Assembly (NCBI GenBank): GCA_902802795.1
Contig: CADCNI010000022.1
Coordinates: 1-42,337, forward strand
Direction of reading: 5' to 3'
Source of the DNA: an uncultured Ruminococcus sp.
GTDB taxonomy: Bacteria > Bacillota > Clostridia > Oscillospirales > Acutalibacteraceae
DNA length: 42,337 nt
The stretch's first letter is position 1. The number at the start of each line of letters is the position of its first letter. A program made the position numbers and the translations under genes. Positions 8,747-42,000 of the stretch are shown here, piece after piece. The notes under the pieces were generated by a model that saw nothing but the letters and a program-made list of their open reading frames with translations, was not told where the DNA came from and did no database searches.

Positions 8747-8881
8747 TTATAGCAATCCAAATAATCAGGGAGACAAAAGGAGGCGATGATGGTGAGTGCA
8801 GGGCAAGGCGGAGGACGACGGTGGGCTGGCGCCCACCTAGGCGCGCCGAACTTGTCTTTTTGTTTGTTTGGATTGCTATAA
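8747..8881 (+). mobile_element. MITE-like repeat, copy 1 (complete, 135 bp)
   Basis: The ends are perfect 15-bp inverted repeats (TTATAGCAATCCAAA and TTTGGATTGCTATAA). If TA at each end is a target duplication, the termini are TAGCAATCCAAA, as in IS630/mariner-derived MITEs. The first 95 bases (to CCTAGG at 8841) are identical to copies at 34941 and 41743; this copy then has a unique 25-base stretch before the right end. Inside are AAAAGGAGG, ATGATG (8786-8791) and a 7-bp hairpin GGTGGGC/GCCCACC (8820-8837). No transposase is encoded. It lies between a terminator and the 3' end of folD. Confidence 0.8.
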
Positions 8882-22415: not shown

Positions 22416-22482
22416 GTGAGTTTCCTCCTTGTTAAATGAGAATTTAGCGCAGTAGGAATAAACAAAAAAGAAAAAAAGAAAT

Positions 22483-22835
22483 AGCGAAGCGTAACTAGCG
22501 AGCGAATGCGAGCGCGGGGTCCAGGGGACTGGTTCCCTGGCAGGTCAAGGGCAGCGCCCTTGTGGGGGGTGGGGCAAAGCCCCACAAGCGCCGCAAACGG
22601 CGCGAGCGAGATGAGCCAAGACTCAAGACGGGGATGGGCGAATTCGGACGGGGAACTCTTTTGTATTCGCCCAACCCCATCGCAAATCCAAGCGCGTCTT
22701 GCCCGCTCAGCTACGCTTCGCTTATGGGGCGCTGCCCCATCCCCCGCTGGTGGCTCTGCCCCCAGGCCCCTGCCAGGAGGAACTAGTTCCCCCTGGACTC
22801 CCACGCTCGCATTCGCTCGCTAGTTACGCTTCGCT
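22483..22835. repeat. 353-bp hairpin-rich element with 32-bp inverted ends
   Basis: Perfect 32-bp inverted ends (22483-22514 and 22804-22835, starting AGCGAAGCGTAACTAGCGAG) enclose a chain of GC-rich stem-loops, including CTTGTGGGG/CCCCACAAG near 22560-22588, GGGGATGGGCGAAT/ATTCGCCCAACCCC (22630-22678) and GGGGCGCTGCCCC near 22727. Inner parts of the arms remain partly complementary (GTCCAGGGG, CTGGCAGG). Flanks are A/T homopolymers. No gene is credible inside. It looks like a dispersed intergenic structured repeat, but only one copy is in this window. Confidence 0.8.
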
Positions 22836-22898
22836 TTTTTTCTTTTTTCTTTTTTATTCCTCTAAATTCTCATTACTTTTACAATCGCCCAAAATAAG

Positions 22899-28222: not shown

Positions 28223-28266
28223 ATTTTTATCAGATATACCCGCGCAGCAGTGAGGTGAAAGCAAAA

Positions 28267-29766
28267 ATGAAGCTCAACATTGACAAAATGGGCGGGATAA
28301 GTGCCGCTTCCTACCTGAGTGCGCCGAATGACGCTTTACTGTACCGGACAATTATGCGAACGCTTTACATAGAAAAGGAAGCCTATCATTCCCAGATGAG
28401 CACTGAGGAGCTTTTTGACAGACTGAAACAGTATGATGAATTTTCTACCGTCACGCAAGACAAGCTTAAAAGCGCGCTGTCGCAGCTCACAGAATGGGGC
28501 TGCGTTTCGCCTATGCAGGACCCGAGAAGGGTGAGAACCATTGAAGAGTACCAAAACAAAGTATATCGGTATTCGCTGACAGAGGACGCCGTTATCATTG
28601 AGCGGATGACGGTGGAGCTGGAACAGATGTTTTCCGAAGGAAACACGCTTTCATCGTCTTTGCTGGTGCGAATCAATGATGCGGTCAGGGATATTCCTGT
28701 CGTTATTGGAGATAAAAGCAATAAAGAGTTGAACGAGTGGTGGCGGAATTTGCAGGAAGACTTTAAAAGACTTAACCGGAATTTCAGTGACTATCTGTTT
28801 TCTTTTTATTCGGTTAAAGGAGAAAAGCTCATCACTTCAGTGCAGTTTTTGGCGCATAAAGAAAAGTTCATCGAATATCTCAGGGATTTCATCACCCAAC
28901 TGCAAAAGCATTCCGTTAAAATTGAAAACAATCTGAAAAGGCTTGCTCCTCAGACAAGGGATATTTTATTGCGGAGAATGACGGAAAGCGAGATGGAAAT
29001 ACCCAGAACCAATTCCGAGATGATAAGCACAGAGGAGATACGGGAGAAAATTCAGAACGAATGGAACGGGCTTTACGCGTGGTTTGTATCGTCACAAGGG
29101 CGTGAATCCACCTGCAACAGCGCTATGGAGTACACCAATGATATTATAAGAAAAATGGTCAATAATGCCATTCTGCTCATGCAACTCCAGAATGCCGGAA
29201 TAAGCCGGAAACAGGATTACCGCAAATACATGCAATTATTTGCCGATTGTGAAAATATCAACGATGCTCACTGTCTTTCGGCGCATGTTTTCGGGGTAAT
29301 GCATGTCGCGCATTACAAATATAATTCTGCCTGCGAAACCGACAGCATATTTGAAAACGCTGCCGATCTTGCGCCGCAGGTCTTTGAAGTAAAGCCTGTC
29401 ACGCGCACTTATAAGCCAAGAATCAAGTCGGAAGGCGTTGCACTAAGGAGCTTTGAAAAAGAAATCTGCCGTCAGAAAAAAATAGAGGCTGTCCGGAGAG
29501 AACGTGAAATGACAGAGGCTTATATCAAAAATCATCGTATGAATCTTGCTGACCTTACCGGGCAATCGCTGTCAGGGGAATTCAGGATCACTCTGCTCAA
29601 ATGGATCGCTTTGGCAAGTCAGAATACAAGGAAAACGGCCATAACGGATTTCGGAAGACGATTTCGTTTGATACCATCACACGATTATATTACGCTTCAC
29701 TTTGAAGACGGCGCTCTTTATATGCCGGCTTACGCTTTTGAATTTGGAGAAGAAAATAATGAATGA
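28267..29766 (+). CDS. jetA: Wadjet type II JetA, kleisin-like (TIGR02677/DUF2397-like)
   Basis: JetA is the kleisin-like subunit of the Wadjet SMC complex, which recognises and destroys closed circular plasmids. At 499 residues it has the usual length for the TIGR02677 (DUF2397) group and shows its N-terminal pattern: ASYLSAPNDALLYRTIMRTLY, then LKSALSQLTEWGCVSPMQDPRRVRTIEEYQNKVYRYSLTEDAVIIERM. The middle is helical, and the last part has a short basic region and FGRRFRLIPSHDYITLHFEDGALYMPAYAFEF. ATG at 28267 follows GAGGTG by nine bases; GTG at 28255 is an alternative. Its stop codon overlaps the jetB start by eight bases. Confidence 0.88.
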   Translation: MKLNIDKMGGISAASYLSAPNDALLYRTIMRTLYIEKEAYHSQMSTEELFDRLKQYDEFSTVTQDKLKSALSQLTEWGCVSPMQDPRRVRTIEEYQNKVYRYSLTEDAVIIERMTVELEQMFSEGNTLSSSLLVRINDAVRDIPVVIGDKSNKELNEWWRNLQEDFKRLNRNFSDYLFSFYSVKGEKLITSVQFLAHKEKFIEYLRDFITQLQKHSVKIENNLKRLAPQTRDILLRRMTESEMEIPRTNSEMISTEEIREKIQNEWNGLYAWFVSSQGRESTCNSAMEYTNDIIRKMVNNAILLMQLQNAGISRKQDYRKYMQLFADCENINDAHCLSAHVFGVMHVAHYKYNSACETDSIFENAADLAPQVFEVKPVTRTYKPRIKSEGVALRSFEKEICRQKKIEAVRREREMTEAYIKNHRMNLADLTGQSLSGEFRITLLKWIALASQNTRKTAITDFGRRFRLIPSHDYITLHFEDGALYMPAYAFEFGEENNE

Positions 29767-30901
29767 ACTGACAGAGCTTCTCGAAAATTTCTGGTTTGTG
29801 CGTGAAAACAACGGAGGAGAATACTTTCGTATGAGACGCGCACTGGACGGCAAGCTGAAAAAATTTGTCAACGAGTTTGTAGGCTGGAATGTCACCGTCA
29901 ACAATAAGGTGGTAAAGCTGGAAAAAATCCCCGCGGAAGCAAAACCCTTTATGGGAATTATGGAATTTGAAACGCCACGGGATTATTGCCTGCTTTGCGC
30001 ACTTCTGATTTTTCTGGACGACAAATTTGACGGCGAGCAATTTCTTTTGACAGAGATGATTGAGAGCGTTGAAAAAATAATAGGAAGCGTAACAGAAGTT
30101 GACTTTACAAAGTTTTCCGACAGAAAATCTCTTGTCAGGGTATTAAAATTCGCGCAGGGAATATCGCTCATCAAAATATCGGACGGTTCACTTGAAAATC
30201 TGGAGAACGACAGAAGCAAACAGATTCTATACGAAAACACCGGACTGTCAATGTATTTTTCCGTCAACCGGAATAATGATATTTCAGGGTTTCAGAATTA
30301 CAGAGATTTTGAAACCTATACCCAGTTGTACACCGACAGGGACACAGGCTTTGCGAGAACCAACAGAGTGTACAGACGGTTGCTGCTTCAGCCTGCTATG
30401 TATTGGGAGAGCAAAGACGATCCGGACAGCCTGTACCTTAAAAATCAGCGCAGGTCGATCATGCATTACCTCGAACAGTATTTAGGCGGGAGGTTGGATA
30501 TTCACAACGGCGCGGCTTTTTATATGCTGGACGAACATGAGACATTCGGGAGAATTCACCCGTCAGACAAAGCTCTGTCCGGTTTCGTGCTGATGGTGTG
30601 CACTGAACTGAGGGACAAATGGAAAAACGATATTCTCCACAGCGATACGCATAAATACCATGTTGCCAACGATTGGCTGGAAGATGTCATTCTCAAATGC
30701 AAGAGGAAATATAACGACGCCATCGGCAAGGGGCTTCGAGAACTGAGCGATTTAAAATTTACCGAACTGGTGACGGGATATTTGATTGAATGGCAACTGA
30801 TGGAAGAGTTTGAGGACGGCTATTATTTATGCGATGGCATTTATAAATCCGTCGGCAGGTTTCCCGACGATTACCGACAAAAGGAAAACGAGAAGGAATG
30901 A
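29759..30901 (+). CDS. jetB: Wadjet type II JetB (TIGR02678/DUF2398-like)
   Basis: JetB is the MukE/kite-like accessory subunit that binds the kleisin. The 380-residue protein matches the TIGR02678 (DUF2398) pattern: LLENFWFVREN, YFRMRRALDGKLKKFVNEFVGWNVTVNNKVVKLEKIPAE, then RDYCLLCALLIFLDDKFDGEQFLLTEMIESVEKI, with winged-helix-like helices further on. ATG at 29759 has GGAG nine bases upstream and lies inside the last codons of jetA. Its stop codon overlaps the jetC ATG (ATGA). Such overlaps at every junction point to tight co-translation of the complex. Confidence 0.88.
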   Translation: MNELTELLENFWFVRENNGGEYFRMRRALDGKLKKFVNEFVGWNVTVNNKVVKLEKIPAEAKPFMGIMEFETPRDYCLLCALLIFLDDKFDGEQFLLTEMIESVEKIIGSVTEVDFTKFSDRKSLVRVLKFAQGISLIKISDGSLENLENDRSKQILYENTGLSMYFSVNRNNDISGFQNYRDFETYTQLYTDRDTGFARTNRVYRRLLLQPAMYWESKDDPDSLYLKNQRRSIMHYLEQYLGGRLDIHNGAAFYMLDEHETFGRIHPSDKALSGFVLMVCTELRDKWKNDILHSDTHKYHVANDWLEDVILKCKRKYNDAIGKGLRELSDLKFTELVTGYLIEWQLMEEFEDGYYLCDGIYKSVGRFPDDYRQKENEKE

Positions 30902-33900
30902 GAATGGAACGGTGGCAGATAAGTCGCTTCGGTTTTGTCAATTTTTGGGTGTATGACCGTGAAGTATTTGAGCCTTCCGACGGCAAAATATTGATTCGGG
31001 GTTCTAACGGTTCGGGCAAATCCATCACAACCCAGAGTTTCATTCCCTATATTCTGGACGGAGACCGCCAGCCTACCCGCCTCGATCCTTTTGGCAGCCG
31101 CGATAGAAAAATGGATTTCTACCTAATCGGTGATCAGGATTCCGAAAAACAGGAAAGTACCGGTTACATCTGGATGGAATTTGTCAAACCTCAGAGCCGA
31201 CAGTACAGAACCATAGGAATCGGACTTCACGCTAAAAAAGGAGCCAAGATGAATACATGGGGCTTCTGCCTTCTTGACGGACGGCGTGTGGAGGAAAATT
31301 TCCTGCTTTATAAAGAAGTCGGGAATCAAATGATTCCTTATGACGCAAAAACACTGAAAAAAGAATTGGGCGATGAAAACTTATTTACCGAACGCCCGAC
31401 GGAATATAAGGAAATCGTTGCGGATAAAATTTTCGGCATAAGCAGGGACAGAATTGAGGATTTTGACCAGCTTACCAACATTCTCATCAAAACCCGTTCT
31501 TCCAAGCTGGCCTCCAAGGAAAACCTGAAGCCTGTGCAGCTTTATGATATTCTGAATGATTCGCTCCGTACCCTGTCCGATGACGATCTTCATCCGTTGG
31601 CCGACGCAATGAGTAAGATCGAGGACGCGCACGCCAGAATAGAAAGTTCTCAGACCGCGCTCAAAGAGGCTGCTGCTCTGTCCGAAGAATATGACAGGTA
31701 CAACCGCTATATGCTTTGGATGAAAGCCCGCAAATATCTGGAAATAAACAAACGACTGACCGACGCTCAGAAAGAATGTGAATCCAAGCGGGAGAATTTT
31801 TTATTAACCCAACAAAAAATAGCCCATGCGCTAGCCCTTTCCGAAAAAACGCAGAGTGAAATAAATGCGATGAAAGCAGAAACGGTGAGTCTGCACATTG
31901 CGGATATTCAGGAGCAAATCGAACGCAGAAACGAAGCGGAAGAGCATCTGACAACGGCCAGAGAAAATGAAAAAAGCAAGAGGCATAGCATTCAGGAAAA
32001 AGACGACAGAATAAGCGAAGGAACGATTCAGAAGCGTGAGCAGCAGAATCAACTTGACGCCGCCGAATACGAAACAGAAAAAATCATAAACGATTTGTCA
32101 GACTACCGGGAAGATGATTTCCCTTTCTATGACAGATTTCTTGCCACCCTTAAAAACGGTCAGCCGCTAACCAACAACCAGTATTCGGCTGAGTGCGGAG
32201 CCTTCAGGCAGAAGGTAGTACATGCGCATGAGGCTATCAGAATATACGAAGTGAAAAAGGAGGCCTATCGCCAGCAGTGGGAAAGATGGATGGAAGCTGA
32301 CGACCGCTATCAAAAATCTGAATCCTCATTGCGTGAAGCGCTTGGCATACTGAAGGGAGAAAAGGACGCGGCAATCGAAAAGTTGTATATTGCGGCGAAG
32401 AACAATAAAGAATTTACTATTGACGATCTGATTATCCGCAGAATAGAATCCGTTTTGTCCCACTTTGAAGGAGCCGGTTCAGCGGGTGAGTATATATCCC
32501 TGCTCTCCGGCATTTACAACGAAAAAAGCGGTGAAATTGCGAGAGCAAGGGCAGACGCAAAAAACGCGGAGGAAGAAAAAAAGCGGCAGTATGAGCAGCT
32601 CCGGCAGGACTTGGAAAATCTAAAAAATACGCCTGAAGCTGTCCCGGTACGTTCTGAGGGGAGACTTTTCGCCAGAAAAATACTGAGCGACAGAGGCATA
32701 CCTTTTCGCTCATTTTATGAATGCGTGGAATTTAAAGAAAACATTCCCGATGATACCCGCTGCGCCATAGAAGCGGAATTGATGGACATGGGAATGCTTG
32801 ATGCGCTTGTCATCCCGGAAGGGTACAAAAACACGGCGGTCGAAGCGCTGGCAGAGCTTGCCGACAGCTATCTCTGGCAGGAAGATAAGCAGCCTGTCAG
32901 GGAAAGCTCTTTTTTCAGTATTGTGTCGGACAGCCCATTTGTGGGAACAGTTAAAAGAATCCTCACAGCGTTTGAACAGAACGCTGTTTTGTCCGACAAC
33001 GGCTTTTATCGCACCGGCGTGCTTTGCGGTCATTCGGTGGGAGAAAAAGCCGTGAGCTTCATAGGAGTCGAGAACCGAAGAAAAAAACGCCAAAAGCAAA
33101 TAGAGGAGCTTTCGCAAAGGCTTTCCGAAGCGGAATTGTCATATGAAAACACAGTGAAGGAACGCAAAAAAACAGACAATCGCACGGTCATTTTGAATAA
33201 AGAATATCAGTCGATTTCCGACCTTTCCGGATTGAATACGGCCCAGAATCTTTTCAACGGCGCGCAGCTCGCGTGTGAATCAGATAAAAAGGACAGAGAT
33301 GAACAGGAACAGGTGTGTGCCAATTTAAAAGCCGAAACGGATTATTTATATGAACGGATCAGTAACTGCTGTGTGGATTTTCCCTCTTACCAGAAAACCA
33401 GCGGCTTCTTTGCCGAAGTCATCAGAGATCTGGACAGCTTTCTGGGGATTTTGCTGGACGCTGCAAGCGGAATGAGGGAGGTAAACCATATAAGGGAAAA
33501 GCTCGCTATGATTTGCGACAGAATTGAAGCGGAAGAGTACGACAAAATGTCGCTGCAATCAGAACTTGAAATGATTCAAAGGAGTATAAAACAATCTCTC
33601 TCTGTTATAGATGCCTGTGACAGGATCCTGAATTCTCCGGAAAATCTTGACCGTGCCAAAAGGTTTAGTGAAATCAATGATCGCATTGGCACTCTTGAGG
33701 CGCAAAAAAACAATTATAAAATAAGCGCGGCAAAAATGCAGGGCATAGAGGATGAACTCCAAAAAAGTATTGCCGCAACAGAAGAAACCATAGCTGCTTT
33801 GGCTGATCAGGAAAAACAGCTCGCGTCTTATTTTATGGAGGAACTTGCGCTTGGCTTTTTCTCCCTGACAACGGAGGATAAAACGCCCAAAAGGTGCGCC

Positions 33901-34983
33901 TATGAGGCAATGAAACTGATTTTGCCCGGTGACGAACAAAAAAATATCAGTGACATTGCAGGCAGACTCAATGATGTGTTTCGCAACAAAACCAATCAGC
34001 TTTCCTCTGAATATCGGCTCATGTCCGAAACTGTTTTTGAAAATTCAGGCCCGGATACTGTCAGATCAAGGATAAGAATGCTGCTTGTCTGGCAGGGAAA
34101 GCAGATTGCTCCGTCACAATTTCGCGCCGAACTTGAAAAATCCATTGCGCATGATAAACTGCTTCTCAACCGGGAGGAGGAAAATATGTTCAGCGAAATA
34201 CTACTCAATACCATCAGCAAAAAGCTCTCCAACCGTATCCGGGAAAGCGGCGAATGGATTCACGCCATGTCGGATCTGATGACAGACATCCATACTTCAA
34301 TGGGACTGACATTCAGATTGAAATGGACCGCAAAAAAAGACTTGGGCGAAAATGAACTTCCGGTGGAAGAACTAAACAAGCTGCTTGCCAAGGACAAGCA
34401 ATGGATCAGTGCCGAAGATATATCCCGACTGACCAATCATTTCAGAAGCAAAATCGAACATGAACGCCGTATGCTGATCGAGTGCGGAGAGGACGTCAAT
34501 TACGAGGTTATCATACACAAAGTGCTGGATTACAGAAACTGGTACGAATTCCGCCTGCTGTATAAGGAACCGACAATGTCTGATTTCCATGAATTGACAA
34601 ATCCCATATTCAACCGGTTCAGCGGCGGAGAACGTGCACTGTCATTGTATATACCGCTGTTTGCGGCAGTTGCCGCGCAGTACGAAAAGGCGGGTCCTGC
34701 GGCTCCGAAAATCCTCGCTTTGGACGAAGCCTTTGCCGGTGTGGACGAGAGCAATATAAGCGAAATGTTTGCCCTGATGGAAAAACTGCAATTCGGTTAT
34801 ATAATGAATTCACAGGCGTTGTGGGGTACCTATCCCACAGTGAAATCGCTCAGTATTGCGGAATTGCTGCACGATAAACACAGCCGTTTTATCACCGTCA
34901 TCAGATATCTGTGGAACGGTAAACAGAAAATTCTGGCAGATTATAGCAATCCAAATAATCAGGGAGACAAAAGGAGGCGATGA
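30898..34983 (+). CDS. jetC: Wadjet type II JetC, SMC-like ATPase (TIGR02680-like)
   Basis: JetC is the motor of Wadjet: an SMC/MukB-type ATPase thought to extrude plasmid DNA loops. The 1361-residue protein has the N-terminal head with Walker A GSNGSGKS (35-42) and DGDRQPTRLDPFGSRDRKM, two long coiled-coil arms with a hinge (roughly residues 290-1000), and the C-terminal head with the ABC signature FSGGERA (1241-1247) and Walker B KILALDEAF (1271-1279, Asp1276, Glu1277). All ATPase motifs are intact. The last 12 or so residues (SNPNNQGDKRRR) are encoded by the repeat at 34941. ATG at 30904 has better spacing to AAGGA than the one at 30898. Confidence 0.93.
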   Translation: MRMERWQISRFGFVNFWVYDREVFEPSDGKILIRGSNGSGKSITTQSFIPYILDGDRQPTRLDPFGSRDRKMDFYLIGDQDSEKQESTGYIWMEFVKPQSRQYRTIGIGLHAKKGAKMNTWGFCLLDGRRVEENFLLYKEVGNQMIPYDAKTLKKELGDENLFTERPTEYKEIVADKIFGISRDRIEDFDQLTNILIKTRSSKLASKENLKPVQLYDILNDSLRTLSDDDLHPLADAMSKIEDAHARIESSQTALKEAAALSEEYDRYNRYMLWMKARKYLEINKRLTDAQKECESKRENFLLTQQKIAHALALSEKTQSEINAMKAETVSLHIADIQEQIERRNEAEEHLTTARENEKSKRHSIQEKDDRISEGTIQKREQQNQLDAAEYETEKIINDLSDYREDDFPFYDRFLATLKNGQPLTNNQYSAECGAFRQKVVHAHEAIRIYEVKKEAYRQQWERWMEADDRYQKSESSLREALGILKGEKDAAIEKLYIAAKNNKEFTIDDLIIRRIESVLSHFEGAGSAGEYISLLSGIYNEKSGEIARARADAKNAEEEKKRQYEQLRQDLENLKNTPEAVPVRSEGRLFARKILSDRGIPFRSFYECVEFKENIPDDTRCAIEAELMDMGMLDALVIPEGYKNTAVEALAELADSYLWQEDKQPVRESSFFSIVSDSPFVGTVKRILTAFEQNAVLSDNGFYRTGVLCGHSVGEKAVSFIGVENRRKKRQKQIEELSQRLSEAELSYENTVKERKKTDNRTVILNKEYQSISDLSGLNTAQNLFNGAQLACESDKKDRDEQEQVCANLKAETDYLYERISNCCVDFPSYQKTSGFFAEVIRDLDSFLGILLDAASGMREVNHIREKLAMICDRIEAEEYDKMSLQSELEMIQRSIKQSLSVIDACDRILNSPENLDRAKRFSEINDRIGTLEAQKNNYKISAAKMQGIEDELQKSIAATEETIAALADQEKQLASYFMEELALGFFSLTTEDKTPKRCAYEAMKLILPGDEQKNISDIAGRLNDVFRNKTNQLSSEYRLMSETVFENSGPDTVRSRIRMLLVWQGKQIAPSQFRAELEKSIAHDKLLLNREEENMFSEILLNTISKKLSNRIRESGEWIHAMSDLMTDIHTSMGLTFRLKWTAKKDLGENELPVEELNKLLAKDKQWISAEDISRLTNHFRSKIEHERRMLIECGEDVNYEVIIHKVLDYRNWYEFRLLYKEPTMSDFHELTNPIFNRFSGGERALSLYIPLFAAVAAQYEKAGPAAPKILALDEAFAGVDESNISEMFALMEKLQFGYIMNSQALWGTYPTVKSLSIAELLHDKHSRFITVIRYLWNGKQKILADYSNPNNQGDKRRR

Positions 34984-35037
34984 TGGTGAGTGCAGGGCAA
35001 GGCGGAGGACGACGGTGGGCTGGCGCCCACCTAGGAC
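34941..35037 (+). mobile_element. MITE-like repeat, copy 2, at the jetC-jetD junction
   Basis: This copy is identical over 95 bases (34941-35035) to the copies at 8747 and 41743, and two more bases (AC) match the copy at 41743. The left inverted end is intact; the right one is missing and jetD coding sequence follows directly. The jetC frame runs into it and stops at TGA 34981-34983; jetD starts at its ATGATG (34980-34985), giving an ATGA overlap, with AAAAGGAGG as ribosome binding site. The GC hairpin (35014-35031) falls in the early jetD coding sequence. Confidence 0.85.
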
Positions 35038-36332
35038 ATTACGAACAGCTTGCCTTGTTGTTCAAACGTGAACCGGGATTTGAACGAATCATGAAGTATC
35101 TCCTTGATAAATATCAGTCATACGGTGAACACAGAGGTAAAATCGTTCTTCATGATGCTTCGCCCGGGGAATGTGAAGCGGTGAATGCGTTTGTATCTCC
35201 CAAGAAATTCTTTAAGCCGCCGGAGCTTTCCCTTAAAGTCACCGATTTTGAAAGAGCGATTGGCGAGTCACCTTATCCCAACGCCACCTTAAAAGCAGTT
35301 CTGGAAGCGTATTTTAATAAACCGATCGCTACATTCTCCGAACGAAATCGGATCAGCAGATCGTTATATGAAAAATTTGTAGGTGATATATCAGACAAAT
35401 TCGAGGGAAAGTATTGCGCTGATTGGCTGAAGGCCATGTTTAACGGCAAGCAGTACGGTTACAATACCGTGATGAACGAATATAAATCCGATGACTGCTC
35501 CGCCAAAGCATTGCTCTCAAATGTGTGCCGCGCAGTAAACGCGAGATATGAATGTGATTTTGAACCGATACAGCTTGCCGTTCTGGGGGCGGATATAACC
35601 GGAGATTCTCACTGGTTTGATGCAGACAGGACAGGAGGCAAGCTACTTCTCAGCGCAATAACATTTTTCTTTCATGAGGCGGAAGGATATGTGCCCGATC
35701 ACAGGCAATCGCTTTATGATTTCTTTGGTATCGAAACGAATGGAATATCCGGCACAGCGGCATCCTTTGCCATCTCATTTTTTGACAGGAGCGAAAACCT
35801 GCATCCGGGATTCGAGGAGTTTGTCCGCAGACGTGAGCCTGTTTCCATTTCCGAAATCAACCTTCGGAATATCCTATATGCCAGGAGCTCCAATAAAAAA
35901 ATATATGCGGTGGAAAATCCGTCTGTTTTCACTGTTTTGGCAGAATACATACCGAAACAAAGCTGCGGTTTGATATGCACATTCGGACAAATCAGAACGG
36001 TGGTGGCCAGATTGATCCAATTGCTGATCGCGGGCGGCTGCGTGATTTATTACGCAGGCGATTTTGACCCGGAAGGACTGCAAATCGCGGATAAGCTCAT
36101 TGCAAGACACGCGTCCGGCAGAGTAATCCCTTGGCGAATGAGTGAGCAGGATTATGCAGCTATACAAAAAAAGCAAGAAATGATCAGCGAAAAACGTCTG
36201 CGCATTTTGCAAACCATTCAGTCGCCCATCCTTCAAGAAACCGCACAGGCGATTGTCAAAGAAAAGCACGCAGCCTATCAGGAATTACTGATTGACCGCA
36301 TGATTAAGGATGTCGTTCAGGCGGAAAAATAA
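34980..36332 (+). CDS. jetD: Wadjet type II JetD, Toprim nuclease (TIGR02679/DUF2399-like)
   Basis: JetD is the topoisomerase-VIA-like nuclease that cuts DNA held by JetABC. Of its 450 residues the first 19 (MMVSAGQGGGRRWAGAHLG) come from the inserted repeat. The native-looking part starts near YEQLALLFKREPGFERIMKYLL, followed by RGKIVLHDASPGECEAVNAFV of the TIGR02679 N-domain. The C-terminal DUF2399/Toprim part has VENPSVF (about 311-317) and VIYYAGDFDPEGLQIA (355-370) with metal-binding Asp361 and Asp363; these are intact. ATG at 34983 or GTG at 34986 have better spacing to AGGAGG. If the native start was lost, only few residues are gone. Confidence 0.88.
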   Translation: MMVSAGQGGGRRWAGAHLGHYEQLALLFKREPGFERIMKYLLDKYQSYGEHRGKIVLHDASPGECEAVNAFVSPKKFFKPPELSLKVTDFERAIGESPYPNATLKAVLEAYFNKPIATFSERNRISRSLYEKFVGDISDKFEGKYCADWLKAMFNGKQYGYNTVMNEYKSDDCSAKALLSNVCRAVNARYECDFEPIQLAVLGADITGDSHWFDADRTGGKLLLSAITFFFHEAEGYVPDHRQSLYDFFGIETNGISGTAASFAISFFDRSENLHPGFEEFVRRREPVSISEINLRNILYARSSNKKIYAVENPSVFTVLAEYIPKQSCGLICTFGQIRTVVARLIQLLIAGGCVIYYAGDFDPEGLQIADKLIARHASGRVIPWRMSEQDYAAIQKKQEMISEKRLRILQTIQSPILQETAQAIVKEKHAAYQELLIDRMIKDVVQAEK

Positions 36333-41743: not shown

Positions 41744-41854
41744 TATAGCAATCCAAATAATCAGGGAGACAAAAGGAGGCGATGATGGTGAGTGCAGGGC
41801 AAGGCGGAGGACGACGGTGGGCTGGCGCCCACCTAGGACGTTTGGATTGCTATA
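41744..41854 (+). mobile_element. MITE-like repeat, copy 3 (complete, 111 bp)
   Basis: Perfect 14-bp inverted ends TATAGCAATCCAAA (41744-41757) and TTTGGATTGCTATA (41841-41854) flank an interior identical to the other copies up to CCTAGGAC. It holds AAAAGGAGG, ATGATG (41782-41787) and the GC hairpin (41816-41833). It begins about ten bases after the LRR lipoprotein stop codon and lies about 50 bases from the terminator of the IS4-type transposase gene. If TA is the duplicated target, the element proper is 107 bp. Confidence 0.82.
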
Positions 41855-41901
41855 GATTGGGGTTCACATTGTTTATTGTACTCATTTATATTATATTCCA
41901 T

Positions 41902-41946
41902 AAAAAAATCGCCAATTTCGTCCTTTTGGGCTTTTTGGCGATTTTT
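41902..41946 (-). terminator. Terminator after the transposase gene
   Basis: AAAAATCGCCAA pairs with TTGGCGATTTTT (41902-41915 with 41935-41946); read leftward a run of seven T follows. It lies about 55 bases past the transposase stop codon. The IS end is probably near here but no boundary repeat can be confirmed, since the other end is outside the window. Confidence 0.72.
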
Positions 41947-42000
41947 ATTACTATAAATGAGCAAAAAAGCGGTTTGTTCGTCAAAATGCACAAAAGAGAG

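Follow-up and report, generated by a model that had tools for sequence, protein, structure and literature searches.

The window, by which we mean the whole stretch of 42,337 nucleotides that was analysed, carries four genes, jetA-jetB-jetC-jetD, that are predicted to form a type II Wadjet operon with an SMC-like JetC and a Toprim-containing JetD (Table 1). In profile searches, JetA2, JetB2, JetC2 and JetD2 cover nearly the full length of all four proteins, and in JetD the DUF2399 and DUF3323 domains score above cut-off, while the Pfam Toprim domain stays below its own cut-off (21.5 versus 23.1 bits). The four genes stand in the order known from type II Wadjet (JetABCD), each matching its type 2 Jet profile; the oddity of this operon is an element inserted between jetC and jetD, which is absent from the two closest operons found.

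Table 1. Features of the Wadjet operon as assembled, copies of the repeat in the window, and the probable false join
Feature	Position	Strand	Remarks
jetA	28255..29766	+	GTG start, ORF as listed; JetA2 profile 4.3e-148
jetB	29702..30901	+	TTG start, ORF as listed; JetB2 profile 5.4e-111
jetC	30898..34983	+	JetC2 profile; best stretch 3-1347 of 1361 aa
jetD as assembled	34980..36332	+	JetD2 profile begins at residue 24
MITE at jetC-jetD	34942..35037	+	bases 1-96 of 160, beginning with the TA of the former TAG stop
Second window MITE copy (L057)	8748..8880	+	element bases 1-94 and 121-160
Third window MITE copy (L010)	41744..41854	+	element bases 1-97 and 146-160
Probable false assembly join	35037..35038		element bases 97-160 and 20 bp of jetD leader/start absent

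The repeat at this junction is shared with the stretches at 8747 and 41743 (95-99% identity over 100 nt), and T34941 matches too. In the contig as assembled, the repeat provides the end of JetC: the jetC codons at 34941-34983 are element-derived and comprise 13 codons, YSNPNNQGDKRRR, followed by the repeat's TGA, which bears out the first-pass annotation (about 12 codons and the stop). The repeat also holds an AGGAGG site and ATGATG, jetC and jetD overlap inside it by ATGA, and 19 repeat-derived residues, MMVSAGQGGGRRWAGAHLG, precede HYEQLALL in the assembled JetD. What that annotation said of the repeat, the reading frames and the operon is thus true of the sequence as given, but its further claims, that the repeat is intact elsewhere, that an insertion was followed by a deletion and that JetD was recoded, are not confirmed.

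The complete repeat is 160 bp long, has exact 14-bp terminal inverted repeats, TATAGCAATCCAAA, and is present in about 110 copies in the host genome (2.82 Mb, 99 contigs). The copies were collected by two patterns, one for the left core and one for the right end, and a copy lacking both would be missed. The 50-base left-core pattern has 68 matches in the host and the 43-base right-end pattern 72, each with at most 3 mismatches, and the reversed-pattern controls have 0; because 68 core matches in the host stand against 0 for the reversed control, the repeat family is far beyond chance. A TA target is indicated by the single TA found at the empty sister sites in four of the nine loci compared (jet, L088, L085 and L039), the remaining five being ambiguous, diverged at the TA or weakly aligned. 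The longest frame in the element has at most 53 codons, and the element therefore lacks a transposase of its own. From these sequence features, we classify the 160-bp repeat as a mobile element, a MITE of the IS630/Tc1-mariner type. The earlier description of a MITE-like repeat was therefore apt, but its length of 95 bp and its intactness at other places of the window are not confirmed, since the element has 160 bp and all three window copies are incomplete.

The near-identity of its copies suggests that the MITE spread recently, in a burst of an IS630-type element, and the named members of the genus in which this occurred are uncultured Ruminococcus or Clostridia MAGs. Complete 160-bp copies of 100% identity are present in the sister genomes G003 (three) and G017 (one). 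A diverged subfamily (L236 on G003:C226 and L238 on G017:C218) has 75-77% identity, keeps the ends and the length and has no ATG; related MITE subfamilies therefore coexist in the sister genomes. On G003:C173, a PF13358 transposase frame, truncated at its start by the contig boundary, precedes an end that is 90% like MITE bases 1-31. This G003 IS630 end pattern was not found anywhere in the host assembly. The host's single PF13358 locus (G000:C3) was rejected as the parent of the MITE, since none of these MITE-like ends occurs across its 3.4-kb stretch. A scan of viral_contigs with the 50-base MITE pattern gave 0 matches. In the consensus, sense frame 2 and antisense frame 1 (two of the six frames) are open throughout, and the 160-nt element folds as one long hairpin (-87.5 kcal/mol, z -10.9). 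The net insertion of such an element is 158 bp, which shifts the downstream frame.

Related jetC-jetD junctions were aligned, as the first-pass annotation had proposed, and empty sites were found. The junction is devoid of the element in both close relatives that hold it, G007 and G001 (90% DNA identity in the jetC end and 81% in jetD), in agreement with the proposal that the repeat came to the junction as a MITE insertion. There, JetC ends in TAG, the stop is overlapped by GGAGGG, and a possible JetD start, TTG, follows 12 nt after the stop, three codons ahead of the aligned HYEQ/DHEQ stretch. Twenty bp of the G007/G001 junction, with the ribosome site and the TTG, are absent from the window right of the repeat; the sister genomes are other species, and a loss of these bases in the lineage of the host could also explain the difference. 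Three further relatives with 55-57% JetD identity (L167-L169) also have an element-free junction, with TAG followed by ATG 10 nt later. These empty junctions refute the notion that the repeat belonged to the jetC-jetD junction from the beginning and gave rise there to the dispersed copies. Nothing beyond the presence of the repeat at this junction speaks for such an origin; about 110 host copies lie elsewhere, identical copies occupy other places in G003 and G017, and we consider its probability negligible.

Loss of flanking sequence is found at other copies as well. We searched 11 flank pairs and obtained sister sites for nine loci and none for L030 and L097. Eight copies without the far end, that of the jet junction included, could be compared with sister sites. 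In this group, the flank missing relative to the sisters amounts to 13 bp at L088, 18 bp at L085 and 40 bp at L039, always on the contig-right side and in both orientations of the element. At L006 no more than about 3 bp are missing. A loss is not clear at L008, L019 and L127, although the alignment is weak for L127 and for part of L019. No flank is lost at L013, the sole comparable copy with both ends.

The manner in which the host copies are shortened follows the strand of the contig. On the contigs, the left core is found 49 times forward and 19 times reverse, and the right end 24 times forward and 48 times reverse. These counts are mirror images of each other, which cellular deletions would not give because the strand of a contig is arbitrary to a cell. 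The copies were fetched, and the element bases kept by each were mapped in contig order, which resulted in 112 rows (at least one of them a duplicate, L030 minus, which is truncated where the fetched stretch stops). In 61 of the 112 rows, 86-104 bp of the arm that is met first on the contig are kept (93-100 bp in 58 of these 61) and a jump follows. The break lies near element base 96 in the 32 element-forward rows and near base 65 in the 29 element-reverse rows (32/0 versus 0/29, Fisher p 4.6e-18, two N-gapped copies set apart). The two break points are unrelated in element sequence, and the choice between them is set by the contig strand alone. No recognisable far end remains in 23 of the 61 shortened rows, the jet copy included. 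The other rows comprise 25 that are complete or within 12 bp of it, 11 at the end of a contig or of a fetched stretch and 15 irregular ones, two N-gapped copies among them. Where contigs end inside the element, they do so at 95-99 bp from its outer edge in 8 of 10 cases, and L025 and L029 have 95 bp of one arm (the second), with runs of N replacing the rest. In two copies, L026 (G000:C69) and L054 (G000:C17), pieces of the element are duplicated internally at the ~96-bp point, as if the joining had erred in the opposite way.

A pattern that depends on a strand arbitrary to the cell is very probably a product of the assembly, and we infer that it arose when gaps were closed at a repeat. A reach of 96 bp would agree with K = 96, the value that ALLPATHS-LG probably uses, although the host may have been assembled with other software. 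A natural short form of the MITE was rejected, since the element-reverse copies break elsewhere. The first-pass annotation had explained the missing right inverted end by an insertion followed by deletion or recombination. On such a reading, the MITE would have been whole when it entered the stop codon of jetC and would later have lost its right end together with the jetD leader in the cell, and element codons would thereby have been fused to JetD. This course of events agrees with the open frames on both sides and the conserved jetD domains of the assembled sequence, and in forward copies the break falls just past a short GGTGGGC/GCGCCCACC hairpin, a plausible point of deletion. However, all 29 element-reverse rows have the same type of break near base 65, off that hairpin, and a deletion at the hairpin was rejected for this reason. 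The mirror-image strand counts and the eight of ten contig ends that lie inside the element at that same distance also argue against a deletion in the cell. The truncation tracks contig orientation and not element sequence, and we regard a genuine deletion as improbable.

We consider it highly probable, from the comparison of sequences, that the MITE inserted into the TAG stop of jetC, that the element is complete in the cell and that its truncation in the contig is a false join. The 160-bp element would have entered the TA of the stop in the sense orientation, and JetC would run on for 13 residues until it meets the TGA of the element. This recoded end of JetC is probably real because it continues from the unique left flank. 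In the real chromosome, as the sister genomes and the complete copies suggest, the whole element would be present; a 40-codon element frame would come next, ending where the right border meets the last base of the old stop, and shortly after it jetD would begin from a native ribosome site and TTG start like those of the relatives. The contig, in contrast, would run 96 bp into the repeat and then jump to jetD, with the loss of 64 bp of the element and about 20 bp of the leader. The N-terminus of JetD in the window would in that case come from a frame that happens to be open across the false join, and the 19 extra residues probably do not exist. The letters reported for this start (AGGAGG, ATGA and 19 residues) are thus correct, but a real recoding of JetD is not upheld, as the 20-bp native leader and start are missing; in the same way, both frames are open as assembled, but that they stayed open after a deletion cannot be concluded from a probable false join. 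Against a false join, it may be said that 25 of the 112 rows are complete or nearly so, which means that the assembly coped with part of the copies, that little or no clear flank loss is seen at L006, L008, L019 and L127, and that no stop interrupts the jetD frame where the contig passes the join. If the insertion has a real effect, it would act through a short extension of JetC and a hairpin that the mRNA forms between the two genes, and a hairpin of 160 nt could, as its predicted fold suggests, affect transcript processing or the JetC:JetD ratio.

It had also been proposed that the element is a mobile stop/start joint, selected because it allows insertion into coupled operons and adjusts the ratio of JetC to JetD. 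In the MITE consensus, TGA indeed overlaps ATGATG behind AGGAGG, and the frame from the ATG is open for 40 codons up to the element end. Among nine sister copies, however, the ribosome site, the ATG and the open frame are all kept only in the four near-identical ones, and the five diverged copies have lost the joint: L236 and L238 have no ATG, L235 and L239 have early in-frame stops, and the ribosome site is altered in L234. Of the 53 host copies with both ends present and at least 400 bp on each side, 31 are intergenic, 18 lie inside a called ORF and 4 lie in a stop codon. These four (L013, L014, L048 and L072, in TAA or TAG) come in addition to the jetC copy at 34942, and L014 is situated 15 bp ahead of a co-directional ORF, which speaks for a joint of this kind. 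Stop-codon sites account for 4 of the 53 copies and, as determined with a simple ORF caller, for 63 of all 4852 TA sites that these stretches contain. This apparent excess, which would favor the proposal, is predicted by selection against gene disruption alone, through the sparing of ORFs, and there is no enrichment relative to the TA sites outside ORFs (4/35 versus 63/1045, p = 0.27). A selected stop/start joint with an adaptive role is thus not supported, and we give it very little credence. The strongly folding 160-nt hairpin might hide the ribosome site of the element, but in the 22 complete copies this site is about half unpaired (mean unpaired probability 0.51). The corresponding value is 0.36 for the 14 copies that lack the far end, 0.56 for the assembled jet junction and 0.01 for the native jetD site in G007.

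The element could also act as a joint that resets itself. If it entered a TAG or TAA stop in the sense orientation, it would add 13 codons to the upstream protein and end it at a TGA overlapped by a well-placed start; the 40-codon mini-frame would then end at a stop rebuilt from the duplicated TA and the last base of the old stop, directly before the ribosome site of the next gene, and in a coupled operon ribosomes would keep flowing to that gene. We think it very unlikely that the element works in this way. No paper joining MITEs to translational coupling was retrieved.

Similar elements have been described in other bacteria. RUP of Streptococcus pneumoniae has 107 bp, is present in 110 copies in one strain, possesses IS630-like terminal inverted repeats (TIR) and a TA target, and is thought to be moved by IS630-Spn1 (PMC3049150, PMC2229807). 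According to the passages of these papers that describe it, RUP resembles the host MITE in small size, copy number (about 110), IS630-type TIR and TA target. The likeness is one of description. RUP differs in length and has stops in all six frames (PMC2229807), unlike the 160-bp host MITE, in which two of six frames are open and whose related IS630 end occurs in sister genomes, with no match in the host's own contigs. Correia/NEMIS, ERIC and RPE elements, as they are presented in the relevant part of PMC2229807, have TIRs, TA termini (not in every RPE), long-stem transcripts and open frames fused to host reading frames. The host MITE is like them in TIRs, TA, stem and open frames and differs from them in TIR length (14 bp versus 24, 7 and 12 bp, respectively, in the table of PMC2229807). 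MITEAba12 of Acinetobacter, a 113-bp element related to ISAba12 with stops in all six frames, is described in a passage of PMC6382973 as fused to the 3' end of a gene, to which it supplies the stop and which is truncated by 398 residues. The jetC copy likewise gives its gene a stop, but JetC keeps its length. Bacterial MITEs that supply protein ends are therefore already on record in the parts of PMC2229807 and PMC6382973 considered here. Among the titles retrieved on Wadjet, JetC or JetD with transposable elements, none was on a MITE in jetC-jetD, and the one paper retrieved on MITEs with Ruminococcus mentions each term a single time.

The insertion described here is very probably real, ordinary in kind and interesting in its place, and its most surprising features very probably come from a false join. 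It is a clean case of how assembly can create plausible but false gene fusions at a short dispersed repeat. Such joins are seen in 61 of the 112 rows, some of them with flank lost, and therefore claims on gene ends or partial MITEs in this genome need the reads.

Other repeats were noticed near copies of the MITE. At L194 (G000:C3, ~50 kb) and at about 41880-41965 of the window, TATAAATGAGCA / TGCTCATTTATA-like sequences in inverted orientation were recognized by eye, which suggests a second TA-flanked repeat family. This candidate family lies near the host's only PF13358 transposase and just to the right of the third window copy. In addition, the window contains a 55-nt inverted repeat (22464-22518 and 22800-22854, 89% complementary, 281 nt apart), the GCGAAGCGTAACTAGCGAGCG stretch of which also flanks the MITE copies L074 and L067, and it is probably another dispersed repeat that was entered by the MITE.
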